A model generated the notes under the pieces. It saw only the letters and a list, made by a program, of their open reading frames with translations. It was not told the origin of the DNA and did not search any database. From Thermotogaceae bacterium (lineage in GTDB: Bacteria > Thermotogota > Thermotogae > Thermotogales > Thermotogaceae): a DNA stretch of 44,489 nt. The position numbers were made by a program, and so were the translations under genes. Of this stretch, positions 36,734-39,149 are shown in pieces. The stretch is taken from positions 1-44,489 of the forward strand of contig JALWSA010000050.1 of assembly GCA_026993805.1 (NCBI GenBank), written 5' to 3'. Position 1 is the stretch's first letter. Each line of letters begins with the position of its first letter.

Positions 36734-37231
36734 TCACCAGCTGTTTTCATGTATTCTCTCTCTGTTTATCTCTTCTTCAGTGTGCGGCGGCTTCTTCTCT
36801 GCCGGATATCCGAACCCAAGCACGCACAAAACTCTGAAGCCTTCCGGGATTTTAAGGAGCTCTTTCATTTCTTTTTCCACTCTGTTTGCGACATGCCCCC
36901 AGCAGCTTCCAAGTCCAAGGCTCGTAGCCCTGAGCTGCATGAATGCAGCTGCAATGGCTCCATCACTCTCCCAAGTGTCGTAATCCTTCACAGCGACGAC
37001 TATCGCAAGCGGTGCGCTTTCAAGGAATGTGAATGCACTCTCCCGGAGTTTTCTTATCTTTTCTATGATGCTTCTTTCTTTAACGATTATCAAATGAACA
37101 GGGCGTCTGTTTCTCGCGGTGGGCGCAAACATCGCAGCTTTTATGAGCTCATCCACCAGTTCTTCTGGAATGGATTTTTCCGAGAACTTCCTTATGCTTC
37201 TTCTCTTTTCAATCGCTTCTGAAACGTCCAT
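36734..37231 (-). CDS. Nitroreductase-family flavoprotein
   Basis: 165 residues, FMN-binding nitroreductase fold. N-terminal RRSIRKFSEKSIPEELVDELI gives the FMN-phosphate site, then APTARNRRPVHLIIV, a GAIAAAFMQLRATSLGLGSCW helix and the closing VLGFGYPAEKKPP. Short for the family, like several oxidoreductases of thermophiles. Substrate unknown. ATG after AAAGGAGGGAG. Convergent with the response regulator, three bases apart, without a terminator. Confidence 0.94.
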   Translation of the reverse strand: MDVSEAIEKRRSIRKFSEKSIPEELVDELIKAAMFAPTARNRRPVHLIIVKERSIIEKIRKLRESAFTFLESAPLAIVVAVKDYDTWESDGAIAAAFMQLRATSLGLGSCWGHVANRVEKEMKELLKIPEGFRVLCVLGFGYPAEKKPPHTEEEINRERIHENSW

Positions 37232-37252
37232 TTAACTCCCTCCTTTGAGAAA

Positions 37253-37282
37253 ATTATAACTTGCTGTTTTAAAAGTTATCAC
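37253..37282 (-). promoter_or_regulatory. Promoter of the nitroreductase gene
   Basis: Minus strand GTGATA (37282-37277), 18 bases, TATAAT (37258-37253), about 20 bases before the ATG. Confidence 0.55.
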
Positions 37283-37321
37283 AGAGTCAAAACGATGTGT
37301 GTGATATGTGTGACTTATCAT

Positions 37322-37349
37322 TTGATTTTCGCTGAAAGTGTGATAGCTT
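37322..37349 (+). promoter_or_regulatory. Possible promoter of the PfpI-PrxQ fusion gene
   Basis: TTGATT (37322-37327), 16 bases, TAGCTT (37344-37349) preceded by TGA, about 35 bases before the start codon. Confidence 0.45.
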
Positions 37350-37384
37350 AAATGTGAAAAAACGAGTCGCTGGGGGTGATGACT

Positions 37385-38341
37385 GTGAAAGTCTTGATAC
37401 TGGTGGAAGATGGTTACGAAGACCTCGAGTTTTACTATCCCTACCTTCGCCTTCTTGAAGAAGGTTTCGAAGTGGATGTGGCTGCACCGAAAGCCGGGAT
37501 AAAGAAGGGGAAAAACGGAACGAGCTTTGATGTTAAAAAGGAAATTTCTGGGCTAAATGCAAAAGATTACATCGGCGTTTTCGTCCCGGGCGGGCACGCT
37601 CCAGACAGGCTCAGAAGGTATGAAGAAGCCGCCGGAATAGTCCGTCAGATCTACGAGGGCGGCGGAGTCGTGGGAAGCATCTGCCATGGACCGCACCTTC
37701 TGATATCTGCCAAAATAGTAAAGGGAGTTAAGATGACTTCCTTCTTCTCGATAAAAGACGATCTCATAAACGCCGGAGCGAAATGGGTGGATGAGCCTGC
37801 AGTGGTTGACAAAAGAATCGTCACCGGCAGAGTTCCATCAGACCTTCCAAAACTCATGCCGCTTTTCATAAAAGAGCTTAAAAAGCTTTCCGGAAAAAGC
37901 ACGCAAGAAAGTCTTCCCGATTTTGAGCTAAAAGACGAAAACGGCAAGACCGTGAGAAAAGACGACATTCTCGGAAAATACACGGTGCTTTACTTTTTCC
38001 CAAGAGCGAACACTCCGGGATGCACGCAGGAAGCCAAGGACTTCACCGAGCTTTCATCTTCTTTCAAAAAACTCGACGTGAAAGTCTTCGGCATCTCCCC
38101 GGACTCTCCAAAAGCTTTGAAAAACTTCAAGCAAAAGCACAGCCTTAAAGTGAGATTTCTTTCAGATCCTGACAAAAAGCTCGCAAAAGCCCTTGGTGCC
38201 TTAAAGGAAAACGGCGGAATAAAGAGATCGACTTTCATAGTCGATGAAAACGGCCGTATAGTCAAGGCATGGAAGGGAGTAAAGGTAAAGGGCCATGCAA
38301 AGGCGGTTTTGGAAGAAGTGAAAAAGCTCATGACTTCTTGA
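37385..38341 (+). CDS. Fusion protein: DJ-1/PfpI domain plus PrxQ/Bcp peroxiredoxin
   Basis: 318 residues in two parts. Residues 1-170 are a DJ-1/PfpI glutamine amidotransferase-like domain with SICHGP (Cys100-His101), FVPGGHAPDRLR and an acidic GYEDLEF near the N-terminus; this family covers proteases, glyoxalase III-type deglycases and chaperones. Residues 175-318 are a thioredoxin-fold peroxiredoxin of the PrxQ/Bcp type with PRANTPGCT (peroxidatic Cys213). The resolving Cys usually five residues later is Ala here (CTQEA), so it behaves as a 1-Cys enzyme. The peroxidase would remove peroxides while the PfpI part deals with oxidised or glycated products. GTG at 37385 fits the GGGGGTGA site; other starts are at 37376 and 37379. 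Its last 14 bases overlap the nitrilase gene on the other strand. Confidence 0.9.
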   Translation: MKVLILVEDGYEDLEFYYPYLRLLEEGFEVDVAAPKAGIKKGKNGTSFDVKKEISGLNAKDYIGVFVPGGHAPDRLRRYEEAAGIVRQIYEGGGVVGSICHGPHLLISAKIVKGVKMTSFFSIKDDLINAGAKWVDEPAVVDKRIVTGRVPSDLPKLMPLFIKELKKLSGKSTQESLPDFELKDENGKTVRKDDILGKYTVLYFFPRANTPGCTQEAKDFTELSSSFKKLDVKVFGISPDSPKALKNFKQKHSLKVRFLSDPDKKLAKALGALKENGGIKRSTFIVDENGRIVKAWKGVKVKGHAKAVLEEVKKLMTS

Positions 38342-39149
38342 GATCTTTAAAGCAAAGGTCTTTGTAAAGCCGGGGGTCTCTGTTTTTGAAGTAGGCGTGC
38401 GAGTCCCCAGCTTCTTCGTATCTGTAGTGATAAAGCACGTCAAGATCGAGCTCGCGAATTATCATTCCCTGCTCTTCTTCAAGCTCTGCCATGACCTGCC
38501 CGCTCGGGTGAACTATCCTTGTGTGGCCTATGAAGTCCATAAAGCCCTTGCCTGTAGTGGAAGAAGCAACCAGGTAGCAGCCGTTTTCAATGGCCCTTGC
38601 CTTCGTAGCCGTGTCGTAGATCTTCCATCTTTCCTTCCCGAAGGCGAAAGAGACCAGAAGAACCTGGGCTCCCCTTAGCGTAAGGCATCTCGATATCTCG
38701 GGAAAGCCTATCTCGTAGCATGTTAGAACACCGAAGGTGACTTCTTTGAACTTGAATGTTAGAAAATCGTCTCCGGGCTCGAATACATCTTTTTCGGCCC
38801 GGAAGAGATGGGTTTTGTCGTAAAAGAGCACTTCTCTCTTTTTTTTGAAGATGGCAGTCGAGTTTCTAAGGTTCCCCCCAACGATTCGGGGCGTTCCGAA
38901 GATTATCGCCATATCGCACATCCGAGAAAGCCTTAAAACTTGCTCACTCACCTGTTTGAAGTACTCCCACGCCTTCTTCAGAACGGCTTCATCAAGGGTA
39001 TAGCCGCTAAGGGAAAGCTCTGGGAAAAGGACAAGATCTGCCCCGCTTTTGCATGCCTTCTCCGACATTTCCATTATGAAGCTAAAGTTGCTTTCGAAAT
39101 CCCCTACTTTGGGCTGCATTTGGACTGCCGCTACTTTCAAAGCTTTCAC
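38328..39149 (-). CDS. Nitrilase-superfamily amidohydrolase
   Basis: 273 residues with the Glu-Lys-Cys triad: Glu44 (FPELSLSGY), Lys112 (YDKTHLFRAEK) and Cys144 (LTCYEIGFPE). Members cleave amide or nitrile C-N bonds, for example omega-amidases, N-carbamoyl amidases or the amidase half of NAD synthetase; the substrate cannot be fixed. The GTG start at 39149 overlaps the upstream TGA (GTGA), but TTG at 39140, with AGGGGTGA before it, is also plausible. Third in the rplI-radical SAM-nitrilase operon; the 3' end overlaps the fusion gene on the plus strand. Confidence 0.92.
   Translation of the reverse strand: MKALKVAAVQMQPKVGDFESNFSFIMEMSEKACKSGADLVLFPELSLSGYTLDEAVLKKAWEYFKQVSEQVLRLSRMCDMAIIFGTPRIVGGNLRNSTAIFKKKREVLFYDKTHLFRAEKDVFEPGDDFLTFKFKEVTFGVLTCYEIGFPEISRCLTLRGAQVLLVSFAFGKERWKIYDTATKARAIENGCYLVASSTTGKGFMDFIGHTRIVHPSGQVMAELEEEQGMIIRELDLDVLYHYRYEEAGDSHAYFKNRDPRLYKDLCFKDLKKS

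Follow-up and report, generated by a model that had tools for sequence, protein, structure and literature searches.

Here we report that a thermophilic bacterium of the family Thermotogaceae encodes a single polypeptide in which a DJ-1/PfpI domain is joined to a peroxiredoxin of the PrxQ/Bcp family, and we confirm that this fusion is real, conserved and, within Thermotogota, rare. The gene lies in a 44,489-nucleotide (nt) stretch of DNA (assembly GCA_026993805.1, contig JALWSA010000050.1), the whole of which is hereafter referred to as the window. The fusion is probably a bifunctional stress enzyme composed of independent, tethered domains, in which a PfpI glyoxalase or deglycase accompanies a 1-Cys peroxidase that is recycled by an external reductant. 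Both domains, and the propensity of this Bcp for fusion, are already known; here, a Bcp lineage that is mostly fused in Thermotogota, with nitroreductase as the partner in the majority, gains PfpI as a further partner. The natural chimera offers a simple system for testing whether oxidising equivalents pass between DJ-1-family cysteines and peroxiredoxins; if no such exchange occurs, as is likely, the chimera would represent another instance of stress enzymes tethered together.

Architecture of the fusion

The reading frame at positions 37376 to 38341 of the forward strand is uninterrupted and open over 321 codons. Its likeliest start is the GTG at 37385, with a GGGGG stretch (37372 to 37376) 8 nt upstream and a second in-frame GTG at 37376, and translation from 37385 to the stop at 38341 yields a chain of 318 residues. 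The chain comprises a DJ-1/PfpI domain (residues 2 to 167; positions 37388 to 37885), an interdomain linker (residues 168 to 177; 37886 to 37915) and a 1-Cys PrxQ/Bcp domain (residues 178 to 316; 37916 to 38332), after which it stops, with no C-terminal nitroreductase domain. Pfam places DJ-1_PfpI (PF01965) at residues 5 to 166 (E value 2.9e-46; 157.8 bits against a gathering score of 26.6) and AhpC-TSA (PF00578) at residues 178 to 297 (E value 5.2e-38). The fusion also passes the NCBIfam PfpI subfamily model TIGR01382 (154.6 bits against a cut-off of 139.05), and the top NCBIfam peroxiredoxin model for the Bcp half is PrxQ, but with a score under the strict equivalog cut-off. The initial annotation had described one uninterrupted chain joining PfpI and PrxQ, and this description holds: both domains are complete in the one frame, and both motifs that it had read are present, SICHGP with C100 (codon 37682 to 37684) and PRANTPGCT with the peroxidatic C213 (codon 38021 to 38023). 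The short linker that it had placed near residue 172 corresponds to the variable segment of about ten residues at 168 to 177.

An AlphaFold2 model of the fusion (nine sequences) has a pLDDT of 93.9 and a pTM of 0.57, with residues 171 to 174 of the linker below a pLDDT of 50, and it consists of two confidently predicted domains whose mutual orientation is left undefined. The PfpI half of the model matches 1g2i and 5tw0 at 0.9 Å and the Bcp half matches 4eo3 at 1.2 Å, and no solved structure among the structural matches listed spans both domains.

Distribution of the fusion

The fused order was queried among 103 Thermotogota genomes, as the initial annotation had suggested, and a full-length match was found in three, the window genome included. 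The other two are metagenome-assembled genomes (MAGs) of another Thermotogaceae genus, g2 (JAMOOR010000372, G001; JAGHBG010000166, G005), which carry the same single-frame fusion with 65–67% identity to that of the window. Because the same single frame occurs in these two independent assemblies of another genus, the fusion is not an artefact of a frameshift or an assembly join; nor do all close relatives have a stop between the halves, which had been named as the other observation that could overturn it. Pairwise identity among the three fusions is 72–78% in the PfpI domain and 58–76% in the Bcp domain, with 10–30% in the linker.

The window genome has no full PfpI domain and no Bcp apart from those of the fusion; its one other AhpC/TSA match falls in a 238-residue frame on contig C39. 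A wider scan of genome contigs, which used two PfpI peptide patterns only, returned the two g2 fusion copies and otherwise PfpI-only matches. Of 498 matched plasmid records, none had a place covering 80% of the fusion query. No description of a PfpI–peroxiredoxin fusion was found in open papers, which is weak evidence, and the genome comparison covered essentially Thermotogota.

The PfpI domain

The PfpI half aligns to PH1704 without gaps, and the E12, K43, C100 and H101 residues are all in place. D74 stands where PH1704 has the Glu of the partner subunit, and F120 occupies the position of PH1704 Tyr120, a residue described as a gate of that enzyme's active site (PMC4156298); this Phe counts against the function proposed here. 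The C100–H101 pair of the nucleophile elbow and the N-terminal E12 are invariant in the three fusions. Among members of the family, methylglyoxalase activity is known for P. aeruginosa PfpI and E. coli YhbO, the Pseudomonas enzyme requiring its Cys and His (PMC11987610), and the PfpI relative PH1704 is a peptidase (PMC4156298).

PH1704, PfpI and YhbO (1g2i, 5tw0 and 1oi4) share with the fusion a complete PfpI domain with an E/C/H active site, and archaeal PfpI is 46–47% identical to the PfpI half in the structural match. However, these are single-domain proteins, whereas the fusion has a peroxiredoxin behind its PfpI domain and Phe in place of Tyr120. Ava_4496 from Anabaena (3fse) likewise joins an N-terminal PfpI domain to another stress-related domain, but its partner is a ferritin-like domain rather than a peroxiredoxin. 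In the PfpI tree, the fused PfpI halves cluster together (100/99), with no outside group supported as their nearest kin; one row of this tree (L083) duplicates the window locus itself, and hence the group table shows two changes.

The Bcp domain and its fused relatives

Elsewhere in the order, the Bcp that matches best is, for most genomes, part of a longer frame of about 325–400 residues: it forms the N-terminal half, and the C-terminal half is a nitroreductase, as in T. maritima 4eo3. A tree of Bcp domains from Thermotogota, 44 in all, groups the three PfpI-fused Bcps as one clade (support 98/94) within a larger clade of 25 (100/99), which contains 3 PfpI-fused, 21 nitroreductase-fused and 1 unfused Bcp and outside which the 19 stand-alone Bcps fall. 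The branching order inside the larger clade is weakly supported (84/65) and is compatible both with PfpI having replaced a nitroreductase and with its having joined a free ancestor. The fused Bcps have in common a shortened loop before RSTF. The T. maritima Prx–nitroreductase (Prx–NR; 4eo3) resembles the fusion in being a two-domain chain whose Bcp falls in the same clade, has the shortened loop and lacks a Cys five residues after the peroxidatic one (+5), and it matches the Bcp half structurally with 44% identity and 1.2 Å rmsd; its partner is a C-terminal FMN nitroreductase, whereas that of the fusion is an N-terminal PfpI. A Bcp–nitroreductase fusion in another genome (G020; L028, 958 to 1929, reverse strand) has lost the peroxidatic Cys (GTSTSTMQA), and its Bcp domain is probably inactive as a peroxidase, since it contains no Cys at all.

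The missing resolving cysteine

The fusion carries the peroxidatic motif PxxxTxGC, as PRANTPGCT, within its AhpC-TSA fold, and the whole chain contains just two cysteines, C100 and C213. The residue at +5 after C213 is Lys, and the usual PrxQ resolving Cys is therefore absent; as there is no third Cys, the Bcp domain also has no alternative resolving Cys, which bears out the earlier reading of this half. By its sequence, the Bcp domain is of the 1-Cys type and still belongs inside the PrxQ/Bcp family: the +5 Cys marks the 2-Cys type only and is missing from many PrxQ/Bcp members, so it does not define the family. Indeed, the majority of prokaryotic BCPs have no resolving Cys, and a Burkholderia 1-Cys BCP accepts electrons from Trx or, with greater efficiency, from GSH/Grx (PMC8945050).

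None of the 44 Thermotogota Bcps compared has the +5 Cys, and PfpI is attached to none of them outside this fusion. The fused clade is without it whether the partner is nitroreductase or PfpI, and many nitroreductase-fused Bcps have a single Cys within the Bcp domain. Because the +5 Cys is absent from Bcps that have no PfpI, its absence did not evolve as a counterpart to Cys100; the comparison indicates that the 1-Cys state predates the joining of PfpI or is independent of it.

A candidate reductant

The window genome has matches over the cut-off to a PDO/Grx-like protein (C64, 32511 to 33143) and to thioredoxin reductase (C64, 33201 to 34088), the latter beginning about 60 bp downstream of the former. 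These two neighbours, the PDO/Grx-like gene directly followed by thioredoxin reductase (G000:C64:32511-34088), recur in G002, G003, G014 and G015, and in G001 the pair lies at a contig end. In T. maritima, BCPs are reported by Couturier et al. 2013 to be recycled through NADH, thioredoxin reductase and Grx-like proteins. By analogy with T. maritima, this pair could recycle Cys213, and its Grx-like member is probably the reductant of this Bcp.

Proposed function and alternatives

The fusion, its conservation, its complete active-site residues, its clade placement and the encoded reductase pair are all observed directly. Building on them, we propose a cytoplasmic two-headed enzyme that would clear reactive carbonyls and peroxides. 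The PfpI domain would assemble as PfpI oligomers do and act via Cys100–His101–Glu12, most likely as a glutathione-independent methylglyoxalase or deglycase and possibly also as a peptidase. The 1-Cys PrxQ domain, derived from the fusion-prone Thermotogota clade but with PfpI at its N-terminal side instead of the C-terminal nitroreductase of its relatives, would use Cys213 to reduce peroxides. The sulfenic acid of Cys213 would be resolved by an external dithiol protein and not by Cys100, a role that probably falls to the PDO/Grx-like protein whose gene adjoins that of thioredoxin reductase on contig C64. The flexible linker would tether the two domains, which are probably independent by analogy with T. 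maritima Prx–NR, in which a different partner sits on the other end and each domain functions on its own, no redox equivalents passing between them (PMC8395237).

The initial annotation had instead suggested that PfpI Cys100 serves as the resolving thiol, making the fusion a self-contained oxidative repair enzyme. Cys100 would then resolve the sulfenic acid of Cys213, within the chain or between oligomer subunits, in a self-contained 2-Cys peroxidase. C100 and C213 are indeed the sole two cysteines, neither varies among the three fusions, and a contact between them is possible because the AlphaFold2 model leaves the domain orientation undefined and the linker is flexible. However, the PfpI nucleophile sits inside a closed pocket close to the interface between subunits, a poor position for a disulfide, and across the phylum Bcps as a rule lack the +5 Cys even where PfpI is absent. 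Moreover, Cys100 is the invariant nucleophile of PfpI, and its conservation, explained by PfpI's own chemistry, is therefore uninformative about a resolving role. With an external reductase pair encoded in the window genome and no exchange between the domains of the homologous Prx–NR fusion (PMC8395237), we regard resolution by Cys100 as quite unlikely. Thus, what stands of the self-contained repair enzyme is a conserved, plausibly bifunctional stress enzyme, and the resolving role of Cys100 is unsupported. There is likewise a slim chance that Cys100 and Cys213 form a redox pair, with a DJ-1-family domain acting within the same chain as resolver or relay for a 1-Cys peroxiredoxin; such a pair would connect the sensing of peroxide with the detoxification of glyoxal or the repair of proteins.

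The domains might also be linked functionally without thiol exchange, the tethered Bcp clearing peroxide locally and thereby protecting Cys100 from over-oxidation. DJ-1/PfpI cysteines are oxidisable, as illustrated by the cysteinesulfonic acid in the solved SAV1875 (4y1r), and the fusion has been kept across two genera, but PfpI commonly occurs in the phylum as a stand-alone protein and we consider such protection unlikely. That the fusion is fortuitous and retained without functional coupling or benefit is highly improbable: although it is rare (3 of 103 genomes) and its linker is variable, the frame and all active-site residues have been retained despite about 35% divergence, across two genera whose gene neighbours differ.

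Genomic neighbourhood

A stand-alone nitroreductase gene (36734 to 37231, reverse strand) and the fusion gene are arranged divergently, and the intergenic region between them (37232 to 37384) contains several TGTGATA/TATCACA repeats, possibly an operator common to both genes. We considered whether this nitroreductase is the detached nitroreductase domain of an ancestral fusion, which is unsupported, as it is nearer to stand-alone nitroreductases (41–48% identity) than to fused nitroreductase domains (23–35%). The only synteny seen for a detached partner is in a genome of the same family (G007, genus g5; C2, 37399 to 41484, L093), where a Prx–nitroreductase fusion has, about 3 kb away, a stand-alone nitroreductase akin to the one beside the fusion in the window, with no further common gene order. 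In genus g2, unlike the window, the fusion is preceded by a gene of another kind, which looks like a candidate member of the DUF72/YecE family. Because the upstream genes differ in this way, the fusion has no conserved neighbourhood, and conserved operon partners were rejected. Downstream in the window, a convergent nitrilase-family gene (38328 to 39149, reverse strand) overlaps the fusion gene tail to tail by 14 bases (38328 to 38341).
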